Of a DNA stretch of 33,623 nt, positions 2,557-28,576 are shown piece after piece (the stretch's first letter is position 1; every line of letters starts with the position of its first letter). The position numbers and the translations under genes were made by a program. Where the stretch lies: contig JAQVEB010000005.1 in assembly GCA_028698105.1 (NCBI GenBank), positions 1 to 33,623 on the forward strand, written 5' to 3'. This DNA is from Petrimonas sp. (lineage in GTDB: Bacteria; Bacteroidota; Bacteroidia; Bacteroidales; Dysgonomonadaceae). A model generated the notes under the pieces. The model did no database searches. It was given only the letters and a program-made list of their open reading frames with translations, and was not told where the DNA came from.

Positions 2557-4122
2557 ATGAAACATATAAAAACAATTATCAGCTTCCTCTTCATATCGCT
2601 TTTAGTTTCATCATGCGACCTGTTGGACTTAGGTCCGGAAGATTACTATGCAAGTGGAAACTTTTGGAAAAATGATGCACAGGTAGATGCTTTTGCCCTT
2701 GGATTACATGCCAACCTTAGAGGTTCGTACCAAGGAATGATGTTTACGTTGGGTGAAGCCAGGGGTGGAACCCAAAAAACAGGGACTTCGTCTCAAGGCT
2801 CTAGTTTGGATATGAGCTCTCCTATTAAAAACAACTCTTTTACTAAAGATTTAACCGGTATCGGCAGTTGGATGGGTCTATATTCCAATATTCTTCAAAT
2901 CAATCACTTTATTGACCAACTTGAGAACGGTACCGAGTTTTTAAGCGCCGATAAAAGAAATTATTATTTGGGACAAGCCTATGGTTTACGTGCTTTCTAT
3001 TATTTTTACTTGTACAGAACTTTCGGTGGTGTACCTATCGTTACCGAAGTAAAAGTACTGCAGGGAAAAGTAGAAGCTAAAAACCTTTATACATCAAGAG
3101 CAACTGCAAAACAAACATTTGATTTCATCAAAGAAGATATCAATAAATCGGAAACAGCTTTTGGGACCCAAACGACGATCAAAAACAATAAAGCCCAATG
3201 GTCTTATTACGCAACCAAAATGCTTAAAGCTGAAATCTATTTGTGGTCAGCAAAAGTGAAAACAGGAGATCAATCTCCGGCAACTTCCGACCTGGCAACA
3301 GCCGAAACAGCTTTGCAATTGGTCTTAAACGCATCTCAGTTCAGTCTGTTGGGTAACTATTCCGATGTTTTCGATTACAAAAATAAGGGTAATAAAGAAG
3401 TTATATTTGCCATTAGATATGCCGACGGCGAAGCGTCAAACTTTGTGAATAATTTCTCCTATCAAATTCCGTTGTTCGTGAACACGTTTTATGATCGTGA
3501 TGGGAATTTAATTACAACAGACATTCTTGATATTAAATCAACTGTAGTTCAGAGACATGAGTATAAATTGGGACTTTTCAATTCGTACGACGATTTGGAT
3601 TCGAGAAAAAGAAGCATTTTTCTTGATTATTATCTAAAAGATAAGACCCTTACCGGAACCGTTGTTAAAAAATACAATGGATTGATCAATGCAGAAGGAA
3701 ACCGCTCATGGTCGGACGACTTCGTAGTGTATCGCTATGCAGATGCTATTTTGCTGATGGCCGAAATAAAAAACATGCAGGGTCAACCGGTGGCATCGTA
3801 TATTAATCAAATTCGTCAACGTGCTTACGGAGCAGAGTACGATGCGGTGACGCACGGATATACCGACGGAAGTTTTGCCGAAAACGAATTAGCTATCCTG
3901 CACGAACGTGATAAAGAATTCGTCCTTGAAGGGAAAAGATGGTTTGATATTCGGAGAATGCAACAAACCAAAGACGGACAACCGTTAGCTTTTGCAGCTG
4001 TTGCCAATTACGACGATCCCAGTCCTGTGATTGATCCCGCCAAATCCTATCTTTTATTATGGCCCGTTGATGTAAATACACTCAACAACGATCCAGAACT
4101 CACCCAAACAGAAGGGTATTAA
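2557..4122 (+). CDS. SusD-family surface glycan-binding lipoprotein, probably NanU-like
   Basis: This 521-residue protein begins with a lipoprotein signal, with a basic start, a hydrophobic core and a lipobox LVSSC putting the lipidated Cys at residue 20. The SusD pattern follows: an N-terminal NFWKNDAQVDAFALG stretch, helical TPR-like segments (YYLGQAYGLRAFYYFYLYR), and a C-terminal LAILHERDKEFVLEGKRWFDIRRM block. SusD proteins sit on the cell surface as a lid over the SusC barrel and bind the ligand. The gene starts 13 bp after the SusC stop, so the two are co-transcribed. The neighbouring sialate genes point to free or bound sialic acid as ligand (NanU-like), which is inference. A strong hairpin follows the stop. 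Confidence 0.93.
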   Translation: MKHIKTIISFLFISLLVSSCDLLDLGPEDYYASGNFWKNDAQVDAFALGLHANLRGSYQGMMFTLGEARGGTQKTGTSSQGSSLDMSSPIKNNSFTKDLTGIGSWMGLYSNILQINHFIDQLENGTEFLSADKRNYYLGQAYGLRAFYYFYLYRTFGGVPIVTEVKVLQGKVEAKNLYTSRATAKQTFDFIKEDINKSETAFGTQTTIKNNKAQWSYYATKMLKAEIYLWSAKVKTGDQSPATSDLATAETALQLVLNASQFSLLGNYSDVFDYKNKGNKEVIFAIRYADGEASNFVNNFSYQIPLFVNTFYDRDGNLITTDILDIKSTVVQRHEYKLGLFNSYDDLDSRKRSIFLDYYLKDKTLTGTVVKKYNGLINAEGNRSWSDDFVVYRYADAILLMAEIKNMQGQPVASYINQIRQRAYGAEYDAVTHGYTDGSFAENELAILHERDKEFVLEGKRWFDIRRMQQTKDGQPLAFAAVANYDDPSPVIDPAKSYLLLWPVDVNTLNNDPELTQTEGY

Positions 4123-4152
4123 TTAATTTTCTTTTCAATACTACTCATTTTA

Positions 4153-4197
4153 AATCCAAAGTGGCAAAACTAACCATTTTGCCACTTCTGGATTTTT
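4153..4197 (+). terminator. Strong hairpin after the SusC/SusD pair
   Basis: An 11-bp perfect stem (AAGTGGCAAAA pairing with TTTTGCCACTT) encloses a 7-base loop. It is extended by a second stem, AATCCA with TGGATT, and followed by a short T-run. It lies 30 bases after the SusD stop. It could be a terminator, or a processing/stabilising hairpin that keeps susCD mRNA more abundant than the downstream enzyme genes. Confidence 0.7.
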
Positions 4198-4221
4198 ACA
4201 TTCAATTCTTGATTTCATCCA

Positions 4222-6306
4222 ATGAAGCGGATTTCCATAGCAATAGCTTTCTTGTTTGTTTTTCTTTCAACCACAATGGCGGAAGGAAAAATAAAAGTAG
4301 CTTGCGTGGGTAATTCCGTAACGTTTGGAGCAGGAATAGACGACCGCACAAAAACCTATCCGGCGCAACTGCAAACGATGCTGGGCGACGATTACGAAGT
4401 CCGTAACTTCGGAAACAGTGGTTCAACGTTGCTCAAAAAGGGGCACAAACCTTATTGGAATCAAAAAGAGTTTTCGGATGTCATCGCTTTTGCACCTGAT
4501 GTTGTCATTATCCATCTCGGATTAAACGATACCGACCCGCGAAACTGGGCGCGCTATCGCGACGAGTTCACCCGCGATTATATCGCCTTGATTGATACTT
4601 TCAAATCGGTAAACCCAAAAGCGGAAGTGATGATTTGCCGGATGACACCGATTTTTCATACGCATTCGCGTTTTAAATCGAGTACGCGCGACTGGTTTTG
4701 GCAAATTCAACAAGCCATCGGATTGGTTGCCGAAACGCAACAAGTAAAATTACTCGACTTAAACACCCCCATGCATCGTCGTCCCGATTTGTTTCCCGAC
4801 GCGCTGCACCCCAATGCCGAAGGCGCAAAGATCATCGCCGAAACGGTTTACAAAACCATCACGAAAGATTTCGGCGGATTGAAGTTGGCTCCTGTTTTTA
4901 CCGATAATATGGTATTGCAACGCAACAAACCCATTAAAATTTGGGGAACTGCCAATCCCTGCACGAAAATATCGGTTTGGTTCGGCGGAAAAAAACAAAC
5001 CACTACCGCTCAATCCGACGGTAAATGGCAAATTCTCTTTCCCAAAAAACCGGCAGATGGAAAAAAGTATACCGTAACCATCGAAAATCAAAACAAGAAA
5101 ATTACGCTTCAAAACATCGTTATCGGCGATGTCTGGCTTTGTTCCGGACAATCGAATATGGAGTTTGAGCTCAAAAACGCATCCACCGCCAAACAAGATA
5201 TTCCGATCTCGGCAAACAGCAACCTGCGGTTTTTCGACCGGAAAGCCAAATTCGGTTTTCCCGCCGAAGCTTATTCGCAAGAGCAATTGGAAACATTGAA
5301 CCAGTTACGGTTTTTCAATGAAAACACCGCGTGGCAGGAATCCGGCCCGGCAACTTCGGCAGAATTTTCGGCTGTCGGGTATTACTTTGGAAAGATGTTG
5401 CAGGATTCGCTTAACATACCAATCGGCCTTATTAACAACGCCGTAGGCGGTTCGCCCACCGAAGCGTGGATTGACCGTTTTACGCTCGAACACCATCCCC
5501 GGTTGGTGGATATGCTCTACAATTGGGCGAAAAACGACTACATTCATCCGTGGTGCCGCGAACGCGCCGCGCAAAATCTCGAAAACGCCCCAAATCCCTT
5601 GCAACGGCATCCTTATCACCCGGCTTATCTGTACGAAAGTGGGATGGAAGATTTGGTTGATTTGCCGATTGCAGGCGTTATTTGGTATCAAGGCGAATCG
5701 AACGCGCACAACGTGGAATTGCACGAAATCACCTTCCCCACTCTTGTGGAAAGCTGGCGAAAAGCATTCAATAACAGCGAACTGCCGTTTTATTACGTAC
5801 AACTATCGAGTATGGAAGTTGGGCGCGAAACATGGGGGCATTTTCGTGACAGCCAGCGGCGGTTGTTATCGGTAATTCCCAATTCGGGAATGGCGGTTTC
5901 ATCCGATTTCGGCAATCGCACCGATGTTCATCCCGTTGATAAAAAACCCGTTGGCGAACGATTAGCGCGCTGGGCGTTGGCCGATACATACAACTTCAAG
6001 ATAGTCAAAAGCGGCCCTTTATTCAAAAATGCTACCTTTGTAAACAACAAAGCCATCATTGAATTCACGGAAGCTGACGAACTGAGAACATCGGACGGCG
6101 GAGCCGTAAAAACGGTTGAAGTTGCCGGAGACGACAAGGTATTTTATCCTGCCGATATTGTCCGCACTGTCGGGAATCGGTTAGAAGCAACAAGTTACAA
6201 AGTCCAACATCCTGCATTTGTTCGATATGGTTGGGCATCGTTTTCGGAAGGGAATTTAGTGAACGAGGCAGGTTTACCGGCCTCAACCTTTTCATCGGAA
6301 TTGTAA
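4222..6306 (+). CDS. nanS: Sialate O-acetylesterase with two SGNH-type domains (NanS-like)
   Basis: This 694-residue secreted protein has a signal peptide of about 20 residues (MKRISIAIAF...TTMA). Domain 1 (about 24-215) is a GDSL/SGNH hydrolase, with the nucleophile Ser32 in GNSVTFG, the GLND block at 100-103, and Asp193/His196 in DALHPN. Domain 2 (about 220-690) is the sialate O-acetylesterase family. It has a beta-sandwich start (LAPVFTDNMVLQR), the CSGQSNME nucleophile block at Ser311, NNAVGGSPTEAW, and VIWYQGESN. It should remove O-acetyl groups from sialic acids in the periplasm so that sialidase, lyase and transporter can act. A two-domain NanS is known from Tannerella. The ATG lies 99 bp after susD, past the hairpin. 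The second domain clearly carries esterase motifs; the true substrate of the first is not evident. Confidence 0.88.
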   Translation: MKRISIAIAFLFVFLSTTMAEGKIKVACVGNSVTFGAGIDDRTKTYPAQLQTMLGDDYEVRNFGNSGSTLLKKGHKPYWNQKEFSDVIAFAPDVVIIHLGLNDTDPRNWARYRDEFTRDYIALIDTFKSVNPKAEVMICRMTPIFHTHSRFKSSTRDWFWQIQQAIGLVAETQQVKLLDLNTPMHRRPDLFPDALHPNAEGAKIIAETVYKTITKDFGGLKLAPVFTDNMVLQRNKPIKIWGTANPCTKISVWFGGKKQTTTAQSDGKWQILFPKKPADGKKYTVTIENQNKKITLQNIVIGDVWLCSGQSNMEFELKNASTAKQDIPISANSNLRFFDRKAKFGFPAEAYSQEQLETLNQLRFFNENTAWQESGPATSAEFSAVGYYFGKMLQDSLNIPIGLINNAVGGSPTEAWIDRFTLEHHPRLVDMLYNWAKNDYIHPWCRERAAQNLENAPNPLQRHPYHPAYLYESGMEDLVDLPIAGVIWYQGESNAHNVELHEITFPTLVESWRKAFNNSELPFYYVQLSSMEVGRETWGHFRDSQRRLLSVIPNSGMAVSSDFGNRTDVHPVDKKPVGERLARWALADTYNFKIVKSGPLFKNATFVNNKAIIEFTEADELRTSDGGAVKTVEVAGDDKVFYPADIVRTVGNRLEATSYKVQHPAFVRYGWASFSEGNLVNEAGLPASTFSSEL

Positions 6307-25186: not shown

Positions 25187-25690
25187 ATGAAAAGAATCGT
25201 ATTGAAAACGTACGGAAAATTTATCGCCTTTTTGCTTGGTATTGTAGGCTTTGCCGCAGGATGCGACGAACCGATGGATGAATACGGTGTGCCCTCGGCC
25301 GATTTCCGGGCAAGCGGCGCGGTGATAAGCAGTGAAACCAAAGACCCCGTACCCAATATCCGCATTGTGGGAAAAGAAAAATTCAGTAACATCTCCGATA
25401 CGTCGTTTACCGACGCTCAAGGCAAATACCAGTTGGACATGAAGCGGATAACGGGATTTCCCATTCAACTGTTCGCCGAAGATATTGATGGTGAAAAAAA
25501 CGGAACCTACTCACCGGATTCATTGACGGTGGAATGGTCTGATGTAACGCAGATCGTTCCGAGAGACGGATGGTACGCGGGAACTTTCGAGAAAAAAGAC
25601 GCGAATTTCGCGCTGAAATATCCGAAACCTGAAGCTATGTATGGAACTTTTTCGGCTGAATACAGAAAAATGAACGAAGAGAATAATTGA
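25187..25690 (+). CDS. Lipoprotein of the rSAM/lipoprotein system (likely modified substrate)
   Basis: The 167-residue protein is taken from ATG 25187 (MKRIVLKTYGKFIAFLLGIVGFAAGC), which gives a clean lipoprotein signal with Cys26. After the Cys comes DEPMDEYGVPSADF. A beta-sandwich of the carboxypeptidase-regulatory type follows (about 41-145, ASGAVISSETKDPVPNIRI ... TSFTDAQGKYQLDM), then a tail with PEAMYGTFSAEY. The motif YG-[VT]-x-SA-[DE]-[FY] therefore occurs twice, at 33-40 and 152-159. I recognise this as the putative lipoprotein paired with Bacteroidetes radical SAM/SPASM enzymes (TIGR04133/TIGR04134 families, from memory). Its stop overlaps the start of the next lipoprotein gene by one base. 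It is probably exported and possibly modified by the enzyme before export; the modification is unknown. Confidence 0.85.
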   Translation: MKRIVLKTYGKFIAFLLGIVGFAAGCDEPMDEYGVPSADFRASGAVISSETKDPVPNIRIVGKEKFSNISDTSFTDAQGKYQLDMKRITGFPIQLFAEDIDGEKNGTYSPDSLTVEWSDVTQIVPRDGWYAGTFEKKDANFALKYPKPEAMYGTFSAEYRKMNEENN

Positions 25691-25902
25691 TGAAAAGACG
25701 TATCTTAAAATATTACGACAAAATGATCATTGCAACCTTGTTGAGTATTTTCGCCCTTATCGGTTGCTGCCGCAAAATATACTCCGAAAAAAAAGCGAAC
25801 AAAACGGAACAAGCAACCGACACCATCCGGATCAATAAAAAAATTACCGACCGGGAAGTTATCGCTATGTATGGCGTGAGGCCGACGCAAGAAGTTAAGT
25901 AA
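25690..25902 (+). CDS. Small lipoprotein, second partner of the rSAM system
   Basis: This 70-residue protein starts at ATG 25690, overlapping the previous stop as TGATG, so it is translationally coupled. A lipoprotein signal with FALIGCC puts the lipid Cys at 26, the same residue number as in the larger lipoprotein. The signal peptides follow one pattern: MKRRILKYYDK here versus MKRIVLKTYGK there. The mature part is short, charged (SEKKANKTEQATDTIRINKK) and probably unstructured, and ends REVIAMYGVRPTQEVK. It thus shares AMYG with the tail of the larger protein, as if it were that protein with its beta domain removed. I know no named family for it. Given the adjacent enzyme, it is a strong candidate peptide substrate. 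Confidence 0.8.
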   Translation: MKRRILKYYDKMIIATLLSIFALIGCCRKIYSEKKANKTEQATDTIRINKKITDREVIAMYGVRPTQEVK

Positions 25903-25921
25903 AAAACAATTAATTCACGGT

Positions 25922-27046
25922 ATGGACGTTAAAAAGAAAATCCTTCTTTCGCTGTATCAGGAGCATAAGAAAACGCAAACACAATTGCATGAACTCACCT
26001 ACTTGTTTTGGGAGTGCACGTTGCGTTGCAATTTTAATTGCGTTCATTGCGGCAGCGACTGCACCAAAGAGGCTGTTGTGCCCGACATGCCCATAGAAGA
26101 CTTTTTAAAAGTTCTGGAAGATATTCGCCCGCACGTAAACCCGAATAAAACGATGATCGTACTTTCGGGAGGCGAACCGCTGGTACGGAAGGATCTGGAA
26201 GAATGCGGCAAAGCCATGTACGACATGGGTTACCCGTGGGGATTTGTGACCAACGGCTGGAGATTATCGCAAGAACGGCTGGATAATTTGCTGAAAGCAG
26301 GCTTGCGTTCGGTAACCGTGAGCCTCGACGGATATTCCGAAGAAACGCACGAGTGGTTTCGCGGCAAACAAGGATCGTGGCTCCGAGCCATCAACGCCAT
26401 ATCGCGTGTGGCTTCCACGCCCGATTTGGTGAACGACGTGGTTACCTGTGTAAACAAAAAGAACATTGGGGAATTACCCAAGATCAAAAACCTCTTAATT
26501 ACGCTGGGCGTAAAACAATGGCGGCTTTTCACCGTTTTCCCGAAGGGAAGGGCTAAAGATAACCCGCTGCTGAAACTGTCGGTTGAAGAGTTCTCTGCGA
26601 TGATGGATTTTATTCGCGAAACGCGTCGCGAAGGTAAAATAAACGCCTCCTACGGATGTGAGGGATTTTTGGGCGATTACGAACTGGAAGTGCGCGACGC
26701 GCCGTTCTTTTGTCAGGCCGGCGTGCATATCGCATCGGTGCTGGCCAACGGCGACATTAGCGCGTGCCCAAGCCTGCGCGGCGATTATATTCAGGGAAAT
26801 ATTTACCAGGACGATTTCTGGACGGTTTGGAACACGCGTTACGAGATTATGCGCGACCGCTCATGGACAAAAACCGGCAAATGCGCATCGTGCAAATCCT
26901 ACAAATACTGCCAGGGAAACGGGCTGCACCTTCGCGACGAAAAAACGGGCGAACTGCTGCACTGTCATTTAGAGATGATGGGAAAACAACAACCCGAAAT
27001 CAGAAAGAGAAGCGTTTTATCCAAAGTTGCCGGATTTTTTACTTAA
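25922..27046 (+). CDS. Radical SAM/SPASM enzyme of the rSAM/lipoprotein system
   Basis: The 374-residue cytoplasmic enzyme binds the SAM-cleaving 4Fe-4S cluster at Cys36, Cys40 and Cys43 (CNFNCVHC). The SAM-site SGGEP lies at 82-86. A C-terminal SPASM region for auxiliary clusters has Cys264, Cys282, Cys321, Cys324, Cys330 and Cys348, in the order CQAG, ACPS, CASCKSYKYC, HCH. The usual CxGGC after the last group reads CQGNG, so one typical SPASM ligand position is absent. SPASM enzymes modify ribosomal peptides or proteins. The two lipoproteins immediately upstream, 19 bp away, are the likely targets. I assign it to the TIGR04133-like Bacteroidetes group from memory; the chemistry is unknown. 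Confidence 0.9.
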   Translation: MDVKKKILLSLYQEHKKTQTQLHELTYLFWECTLRCNFNCVHCGSDCTKEAVVPDMPIEDFLKVLEDIRPHVNPNKTMIVLSGGEPLVRKDLEECGKAMYDMGYPWGFVTNGWRLSQERLDNLLKAGLRSVTVSLDGYSEETHEWFRGKQGSWLRAINAISRVASTPDLVNDVVTCVNKKNIGELPKIKNLLITLGVKQWRLFTVFPKGRAKDNPLLKLSVEEFSAMMDFIRETRREGKINASYGCEGFLGDYELEVRDAPFFCQAGVHIASVLANGDISACPSLRGDYIQGNIYQDDFWTVWNTRYEIMRDRSWTKTGKCASCKSYKYCQGNGLHLRDEKTGELLHCHLEMMGKQQPEIRKRSVLSKVAGFFT

Positions 27047-27074: not shown

Positions 27075-27641
27075 ATGAAAGTCAAATTCATATTATTCAT
27101 ATTAATCCTTATACTCTCAAGTTGTGAAAAGAATGAAACACAAGAGTTCGATTTCGAATATACAGAATTGAACGACATAAAATTGAAATTCTCAAAATCA
27201 AGTTATTTTATTCTAACTGCTGATGAAATTTCCGGTAGAGCGAAAGAGTTAGAGTTATCAAGATCAAAAGAAAAAGGCGAAATCATATCATATTCCTCAC
27301 GCAATAATCTTTCTTTTTATGTCTATGGTAATAAGCGCATTGTAAACAAATCCGATTATTTGTCCGAAATATATTATACTGAAGAAGGATCATCTATCAT
27401 CATTTTACCCCGTTTGATAGTTTTTTTAAAAAACAGTCATCAAATTGATAATATAATTACCGACTATAAAGATTTGCTTACTTCGGAAGAACAAATTAAT
27501 AATCAGAAATATATCTTTAAATGCAATGTGAGCAAATCTGAAGAAATGATTCAAATAGTAAATACCATAAGCAATAAAAATGGTGTTGATTGGTGTGAAC
27601 CTGATATGCTTATGGATCTTAAGACCTTTGATCAATATTAA
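27075..27641 (+). CDS. Lipoprotein resembling a stand-alone S8-protease prodomain
   Basis: The 188-residue lipoprotein (ILILSSC, Cys17) carries features I associate with the propeptide of Bacteroidetes subtilisin-like (S8) proteases. These are a YFILTADEI segment, an SIIILPRLIVFLK strand, KYIFKCNVSKSEE, and the closing VDWCEPDM at 172-178, which in full-length proteases comes just before the catalytic domain. Here the protein stops ten residues later. No Asp, His or Ser catalytic block follows in any frame before the next gene. It may be a truncated relic, or a self-standing protease inhibitor or chaperone. Its coding sequence is visibly richer in A/T than its neighbours, hinting at transfer. 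It starts 28 bp after the radical SAM gene. The ATG at 27075 is preferred over the frame opening at 27027. Confidence 0.65.
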   Translation: MKVKFILFILILILSSCEKNETQEFDFEYTELNDIKLKFSKSSYFILTADEISGRAKELELSRSKEKGEIISYSSRNNLSFYVYGNKRIVNKSDYLSEIYYTEEGSSIIILPRLIVFLKNSHQIDNIITDYKDLLTSEEQINNQKYIFKCNVSKSEEMIQIVNTISNKNGVDWCEPDMLMDLKTFDQY

Positions 27642-27715
27642 ATTCAACTATTTTTCATCGTTACAAAGTCCAAAAACAAAATTTCACTCGGATTTTAATT
27701 CTAAAAATCGAAAAA

Positions 27716-28576
27716 ATGAAAAAAATCATCGTTCTGCTGGCTTTTGCGGTATCGTTTGTTTTCTTTTGGTCCTGTTCAACACTCACTCCGCGCTACATTC
27801 ATTCACCCGCGTCCCATACACCGGCTTATCTGAAGAACAAAGGTGACAGCAAAGTATCGGCCAACCTGGCTTTTTCAGTCGAAGAACATTTAAACAACAG
27901 TTTTTTATTTCCGGATAACAAAACCACAAGCAGCACCATCGGGGTGGATGTAAACACCGCCTATGCTTTCACAGATTGGCTTATGATGACCGCAGGCGGA
28001 TATTATAAGCACGAAACCGACATCAATAACACCAACGATATCTTAGACACGTGGACCGATAGTAAGACAACCTATGCCCGAAAGGCTTTCGATGTAGGCA
28101 TAGGTCTTCTCATCCCTATCACGCAAACGCGCGATATTTTGTTTAATCCGATAATCGGTATAAATTTCGGGAAAACGAGTTCCGAAATGTTTAACATCTC
28201 CGACTCCATATCCGATAACCGACGCTTTTATCTCAACGGAAACACAAAAGAATATTATCTTAGTCCAAATTTTAATTTTGAGTTAAGTAAAAACCAAAAA
28301 ATAAGCATATCGCCCCGCTTTTCTTTATTAAAGTTCGATAACATAGAGAATAGCTACCCGCAGCAAATAATTGACAGGTTAAACCTCAACGCGTTAGAAA
28401 AAAACCACTTCTTTTTCTCGCCGTCGCTCTTCTATCAGATGGGATTCGATAATATTGATTGGCTGAAACTGGATGTGGGCTTGTCTTTTTCCACACGGAT
28501 GAATAACGATGACAACTTCATGTATCTGAAAACGCGAGCGTTCCAACTGTCGTCAGGCATCTCCGTTTATTTTTAA
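27716..28576 (+). CDS. Predicted outer-membrane beta-barrel lipoprotein
   Basis: The 286-residue protein has a lipoprotein signal (VFFWSC, Cys20). After CSTLTPRYIHSPASHTPAYLKNKGD come alternating strands (KVSANLAFSVEEH, GVDVNTAYAFTDWLMMTAGGYYK, AFDVGIGLLIPI, ILFNPIIGINFG, KISISPRFSLLKF, LDVGLSFSTRM). It ends in an aromatic C-terminal strand, LSSGISVYF. This pattern suggests a small 8- to 12-strand barrel or barrel-like sandwich. I recognise no named family. It follows the prodomain-like lipoprotein by 74 bp on the same strand, so it may belong to the same transcript as the radical SAM genes. Its function is unknown. Confidence 0.7.
   Translation: MKKIIVLLAFAVSFVFFWSCSTLTPRYIHSPASHTPAYLKNKGDSKVSANLAFSVEEHLNNSFLFPDNKTTSSTIGVDVNTAYAFTDWLMMTAGGYYKHETDINNTNDILDTWTDSKTTYARKAFDVGIGLLIPITQTRDILFNPIIGINFGKTSSEMFNISDSISDNRRFYLNGNTKEYYLSPNFNFELSKNQKISISPRFSLLKFDNIENSYPQQIIDRLNLNALEKNHFFFSPSLFYQMGFDNIDWLKLDVGLSFSTRMNNDDNFMYLKTRAFQLSSGISVYF

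Follow-up and report, generated by a model that had tools for sequence, protein, structure and literature searches.

The window, by which we mean the whole 33,623-nucleotide stretch of Petrimonas sp. DNA that was analysed, contains three tightly packed + strand genes encoding two lipoproteins and a radical SAM/SPASM enzyme. The first gene (ORF1, 25187..25690) encodes lipoprotein 1 of 167 aa, with a signal peptide at residues 1-25, lipid Cys26, a domain at about residues 37-143 and a flexible tail. It overlaps as TGATG with the second gene (ORF2, + strand, 25690..25902), which encodes lipoprotein 2, 70 aa long from its ATG, where a signal peptide and lipid Cys26 are followed by a spacer and then AMYGVRPTQEVK, without a folded domain. 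The third gene (ORF3, + strand, 25922..27046) encodes the enzyme of 374 aa, which begins with an N-terminal helix (residues 3-22) and carries the radical SAM motif CNFNCVHCGS at 36-45, SPASM cysteines at 264, 282, 321, 324, 330 and 348 and an extra invariant Cys246. The TIGR04133 HMM matched the enzyme with 551.2 bits over residues 4-351 (curated cut-off 425), and lipoprotein 1 scored 88.1 bits with the TIGR04134 HMM (cut-off 39.8), by which the adjacent lipoprotein expected for TIGR04133 was also present. The operon belongs to the TIGR04133/TIGR04134 radical SAM/lipoprotein system of Bacteroidota, with which it shares adjacent genes in the same order and whose family names give neither function nor target. 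No family match was obtained for lipoprotein 2, which failed the TIGR04134 cut-off and resembled that family in its signal peptide only (12.7 bits, E 0.16). The enzyme was present as a single copy in the assembly, where no second large lipoprotein of the lipoprotein 1 kind was found.

Candidate splice sites were located on the + strand in both lipoproteins: E32-Y33-G34-V-P-S-A-D-F (25280..25306) in the linker that connects lipid Cys26 with the folded domain of lipoprotein 1, M151-Y152-G153-T-F-S-A-E-Y (25637..25663) in its C-terminal tail, and M60-Y61-G62-V-R (25867..25881) in lipoprotein 2. Among homologues, the first of these sites mostly takes the form EYGxP. The AF2 model of lipoprotein 1 (pLDDT 87.5) places YG33-34 ahead of the first strand of the domain (residue 37) and YG152-153 in tail blocks of pLDDT 64-67; the domain itself weakly resembles a CnaB/transthyretin-like beta-sandwich (Foldseek: CnaB2, carboxypeptidase D transthyretin-like domain). 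The AF2 model of the enzyme (pLDDT 86.9) was nearest to the solved structures of SuiB, SkfB, BlsE, PqqE and anSME, and a PDB sequence search with the enzyme gave no splicease-family match. A preliminary description of the locus, made from sequence alone, had pointed out the TGATG overlap, a shared signal-peptide pattern (MKRxxLKxY, with the lipobox Cys at residue 26 in both), AMYG near both C-termini and a second such motif in the larger lipoprotein, and had named TIGR04133/TIGR04134. All of these claims held: the AMYG sites have YG at residues 152-153 and 61-62, the second motif reads EYGVPSADF (YG 33-34), so that YGVPSADF and YGTFSAEY form a real pair, and both curated cut-offs were passed. 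On the same strand after the operon, 27075-28576 encodes a lipoprotein of 188 aa and a beta-barrel-like protein of 286 aa, neither of which emerged as widely conserved beside the enzyme.

To gain a wider view of the YG motif, relatives of the enzyme were collected from genome contigs and genomes and reduced at 92% identity to 145, among which the only widely conserved neighbour was a lipoprotein (118 of 145 loci). The upstream test was confined to 139 non-redundant loci with at least 700 bases upstream of the enzyme, and the lipobox rule was relaxed to take in the FQAC class. A lipobox ORF ended directly upstream of the enzyme at 113 of the 139 loci; YG was found in the mature part of 109 of these 113, against 21 of 117 lipobox ORFs lying more than 3 kb from the enzyme, and YGxP in 96 of the 113 against none of the 117 distant ORFs of the same stretches. 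The comparison is not circular because the lipobox test ignores the motif, and although the loci are related and cannot be regarded as independent draws, the contrast is nonetheless extreme. Upon inspection, most of the loci outside the 113 were found to have a YG protein, namely lipoproteins escaping the lipobox rule, AQYG proteins that are secreted, or an ORF in which ECIYGPPPGF is repeated three times; for a minority no YG protein was in reach. L184-L186, which gave the three lowest enzyme scores (225-251 bits), may belong to another family.

At the 109 sites chosen by YG, Pro occupied position +3 in 96, position +2 varied (T, V, S, P, A, M) and so did the residue X before Tyr (C34, E32, M19, K8, L5). 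When 93 larger upstream lipoproteins were aligned without choosing by YG, the lipid Cys ranked first in conservation, followed by Tyr (89/93) and Gly (90/93), with Pro fifth; the preliminary description had proposed conservation outside the signal peptide as a check on the motif, and this check was passed. Most sites lie in a linker, 1 to 16 residues past the Cys, or in tails as far as 80 residues from it, and a few partners (L178, L183) have YA instead of YG. The motif recurs on unrelated scaffolds, including CnaB-like lipoproteins, lipoproteins of 51-102 aa, coiled-coil-like lipoproteins with AVYGSPE-type repeats, the secreted AQYG proteins and the protein with three ECIYGPPPGF repeats; the common element is the motif and not the protein scaffold.

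The small partners form a recurrent type. Among the 109 directly upstream YG lipoproteins, 16 were of 110 aa or less and combined a signal peptide and a spacer with at least one YG site, lipoprotein 2 being of this group; the TIGR04134 family covers neither the 70-aa protein of this operon nor similar minimal partners. The AMYGVRP tail of lipoprotein 2 resembles the large-lipoprotein tails of two relatives (MYGVRP in L039, MYGVRS in L040), and we therefore infer that it reads as a large lipoprotein minus its domain. Its gene was not seen beside the closest enzyme relatives and therefore looks recent, the minimal type itself being recurrent. Minimal substrates of the kind proposed earlier for the 70-residue protein do recur, although this exact ORF did not turn up among the closest relatives.

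The enzyme was detected in 97 of 393 genomes of the order Bacteroidales, and TIGR04134 above its cut-off in 58 of the 393. The co-occurrence predicted in the preliminary description also held, as 55 of these 58 genomes have the enzyme. Two of the three that lack it (G339, G401, G261) carry homologues that have lost the Tyr but retain its flanks: AGNGSPYAKFKIKG (GNGSPYAKF) in G339, against EYGTPYAKF-like sequences in relatives, and NKTPHADYIF in G401, against YGxPHADY in relatives. G261 runs counter to this: two YG homologues are present in this MAG, which is 94% complete, but the enzyme was not found. In enzyme-positive genomes nearly all unlinked close homologues keep YG, and one paralogue of the enzyme-positive G164 also has the NK form. 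Loss of Tyr without the enzyme is suggestive of a link between the two, the numbers being small (two cases, one counterexample). Beside the Tyr-less homologue of G401, at about 3670-4800 of locus L239, long simple protein repeats (ILAKRKMTLAKRK and complementary frames) were observed.

In order to place the enzyme among SPASM families, trees were examined in which TIGR04133 grouped, with support of 99/99 and 100/99, with the PlpX family (TIGR04103), DUF1843-associated enzymes and others associated with YG, the latter tree having haem-type, MftC, PqqE and TIGR04053 enzymes outside the clade. NCBIfam scores of the enzyme to TIGR04053 and to haem enzymes were as high as that to TIGR04103; adding haem-type enzymes to the tree left the clade unchanged. 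Topologies joining TIGR04133 to haem-type enzymes (p 0.031) or to TIGR04053 (p 0.008) were rejected; that joining it to MftC was 33.6 log units worse and was not rejected (p 0.133). G44, S45, T175, W200, G248 and R258 are common to TIGR04133 and the splicease-like group and rarer outside. The TIGR04133 enzyme descends within the splicease clade, with the reservation that the MftC alternative is not formally rejected. The SPASM cysteines differ within this clade: the seventh (the CX3C Cys) is G, S, A or P in 71 of 71 diverse TIGR04133 rows and Cys in 11 of 11 splicease-like rows, and Cys246 is present in all 71 TIGR04133 rows and absent from most others. For TIGR04103 in cyanobacteria we relied on one plasmid locus of Nostoc, whose PlpX homologue scored 853 bits to TIGR04103 and whose Nif11 precursor ends in ALYGLPPELF, an xYGxPxxxF pattern. 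Other clade members adjoin LYGTPPVPLY, six KYGYP repeats or PYGxxxRE peptides. The KYGYP(C) repeats belong to a 214-aa protein beside a splicease-clade enzyme of the same order (L227, about 2950-3600, G199); this protein may be a multi-site precursor, and a chagasin-type inhibitor identity considered for it was dropped in the absence of a Pfam match.

PlpX is reported to cut tyramine out of Xaa-Tyr-Gly, leaving an alpha-keto amide (PMC11002830); the natural sites of PlpXY include MYG and LYG, the loss is C8H9NO and the reaction works without a leader (PMC10533398). The TIGR04133 system resembles that of PlpX/PlpY (TIGR04103, IPR026482; Pleurocapsa) in its well-supported clade, in HCGS, T175, W200, G248 and R258, and in substrate sites of the xYGxPxxxF type (MYG and LYG among them), where X is variable, YG is fixed and several sites per substrate are possible. 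Of the features that define PlpX, an X-Tyr-Gly in the cognate substrate is met by EYG, MYG and MYG of this operon, and common ancestry to the exclusion of other SPASM families is met at 100/99, MftC again excepted. On the other hand, the enzyme scored only 116.8 bits with TIGR04103, below the cut-off of 725, and TIGR04133 shares only ~27% identity with the Nostoc PlpX homologue. No gene for the PlpY (RRE) partner was found upon clustering all ORFs within 3 kb of the 145 enzymes. The TIGR04133 partners are full lipoproteins with signal peptides, in place of precursors with a Nif11/nitrile-hydratase leader, and the seven-Cys SPASM pattern (CX2CX5CX3C) is not met, Cys246 having been gained. The enzyme is not a TIGR04103 PlpX, since the score, partner and Cys-pattern tests fail; by analogy, it probably works like one. 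Other relatives are less alike. The rad_SAM_trio system (TIGR03913) with DUF1843 GDL-motif peptides lies in the same clade and some of its adjacent peptides have YG towards the N-terminus (PYGAGIREAI, LYGVGIREAI), but these are small peptides of helical type, often with YA and without a lipoprotein signal. The mycofactocin maturase MftC (TIGR03962) is likewise a SPASM enzyme acting on a peptide Tyr; however, it falls outside the clade in the free trees, uses the dedicated chaperone MftB and targets a C-terminal Val-Tyr.

The preliminary description had put forward Tyr-Gly as the site of modification without giving a likely chemistry. The motif tests support the first point, and we consider it very likely that YG is the target of the enzyme in some form, with Tyr as the modified residue remaining an inference; to this the present analysis adds PlpX-type spliceases as the sister clade. 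Our favoured reading is that TIGR04133 is probably a splicease removing tyramine from lipoproteins, a chemistry inferred without any biochemistry. Tyramine splicing was judged the best explanation because the clade, the motif and the combination of free X with fixed YG are the same. According to this reading, the enzyme would bind the precursors of both lipoproteins while they are still cytoplasmic, ahead of Sec export, a timing that is likewise inferred, and would act on flexible X-Tyr-Gly(-x-Pro) segments, of which lipoprotein 1 has E-Y-G past its lipid Cys and M-Y-G in its tail, and lipoprotein 2 has M-Y-G; the modified protein would then be exported, lipidated and shown at the envelope. 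Excision of tyramine is predicted to shift the mass by -135.068 Da per site, which would take the tryptic peptides YPKPEAMYGTFSAEYR from 1908.872 to 1773.803 and EVIAMYGVRPTQEVK from 1718.903 to 1583.834 (computed monoisotopic neutral masses). Against the splicease reading stand the lack of biochemistry and of a PlpY gene, the altered SPASM cysteines, the ~27% identity, the G261 genome, the YA partners and the MftC tree that was not rejected; with the seventh SPASM Cys gone and Cys246 invariant, it is possible that the chemistry has changed.

Among the rivals, the one that survives best accepts YG as the target and supposes another chemistry: a Tyr crosslink (a three-residue cyclophane or a link to X), Tyr oxidation/decarboxylation as in MftC, or cleavage of Tyr between C-alpha and C-beta, which would leave a shortened residue. 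It can draw on the distinct SPASM Cys set with Cys246, on the MftC tree, on the equal NCBIfam scores to TIGR04053, haem enzymes and TIGR04103, and on the Pro after YGx, which suggests a constrained turn. However, the free trees join the enzyme to the splicease-like group at 99-100 with shared signature residues, cyclophane enzymes need a suitable third residue whereas here +2 varies and G is invariant, and the combination of G at +1 with an unconstrained X at -1 typifies spliceases; we hold this rival to be unlikely. A still weaker rival takes YGxP as a recognition, sorting or lipidation-related signal, with the enzyme acting elsewhere on the lipoprotein or signal peptide. In its favour, the signal peptides resemble one another too (39 of 113 upstream ORFs have GF in the five residues preceding the Cys, against 4 of 117 distant ones) and the motif of the CYG class abuts the lipid Cys. 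But the motif also occurs up to 80 residues from the Cys, in C-terminal tails and in secreted or repeat-containing non-lipoproteins, and the other conserved positions make up the domain core of the large lipoproteins, which the small partners lack, leaving this rival with very little plausibility. That the lipoproteins are not substrates and merely form a functional couple with the enzyme, which for example makes a small molecule that they sense or carry, finds some support in their CnaB/transthyretin-like fold and in the formally unknown function of TIGR04133, but is made highly improbable by unrelated scaffolds that keep only the YG site, by tiny lipoproteins without any domain for binding and by the loss of Tyr in two homologues without the enzyme. 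Sactipeptide or thioether chemistry was rejected, as the substrates have no conserved Cys besides the one that is lipidated.

Returning to tyramine splicing, splicease products have been reported to be widespread and protease-inhibiting (PMC10373908). Because splicease ketoamides inhibit proteases, the simplest guess at a role, and no more than a possibility, is a surface-tethered reversible protease inhibitor. A bolder version, which we can neither prefer nor set aside, is that about a quarter of the sampled Bacteroidales genomes (the 97 of 393) have a splicease that needs no partner and excises tyramine from envelope lipoprotein backbones, the CYG subclass included, as general surface-protein maturation and not for a peptide natural product. 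In the CYG subclass the lipidated Cys itself would then become a beta-amino acid; to our knowledge, no splicease substrate is known in which X is a lipidated Cys, as that subclass would require.

The pairing of enzyme and lipoprotein was already known, with its function unknown. New here are the near-universal YG site, the minimal partners, the loss of Tyr where the enzyme is lacking and the position of the enzyme within the splicease clade. No prior statement of these points was found in the literature searched, which left out Scott et al. 2022 (10.1016/j.chempr.2022.09.017), possibly covering TIGR04133; a 2023 RiPP survey of Bacteroidales mentions neither lipoproteins nor splicing in its main text. 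The TIGR04133 enzyme is common in gut-type Bacteroidales, and if the splicease reading is true, many of them, including the human gut species Parabacteroides distasonis and Bacteroides faecis, would display lipoproteins with a reactive backbone alpha-ketoamide. This would amount to a hidden protein modification missed by ordinary proteomics searches and a possible protease-inhibiting surface coat, and the enzyme would be a PlpY-independent splicease useful for site-specific protein labelling.

Several further arrangements were observed among the loci. In scans of viral contigs TIGR04133 was not found, and for PlpX only distant radical SAM fragments were obtained. At L139 an ORF 869-1346 downstream of the aligned enzyme start, with the TIGR04133 enzyme upstream, holds three near-identical DDVECIYGPPPGFDDDYREI repeats and no obvious lipoprotein signal. 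At loci L249-L254, L117 and L126 of enzyme-positive genomes, secreted proteins encoded downstream of the enzyme or unlinked to it share a conserved signal-peptidase-I-like end and, when mature, the N-terminus AQYGxxx; that of L254 also contains a stretch resembling a type IX sorting domain. At L142 and L152 (G331, G394) two TIGR04133 enzymes were seen in tandem, with CYG lipoproteins alongside. Finally, plasmid pTS1 of Treponema saccharophilum carries a TIGR04133 enzyme and a CYGMPENYY lipoprotein (L198, 5613-7089) adjoining an Mpi-type invertase, which represents spread of the system beyond Bacteroidota.
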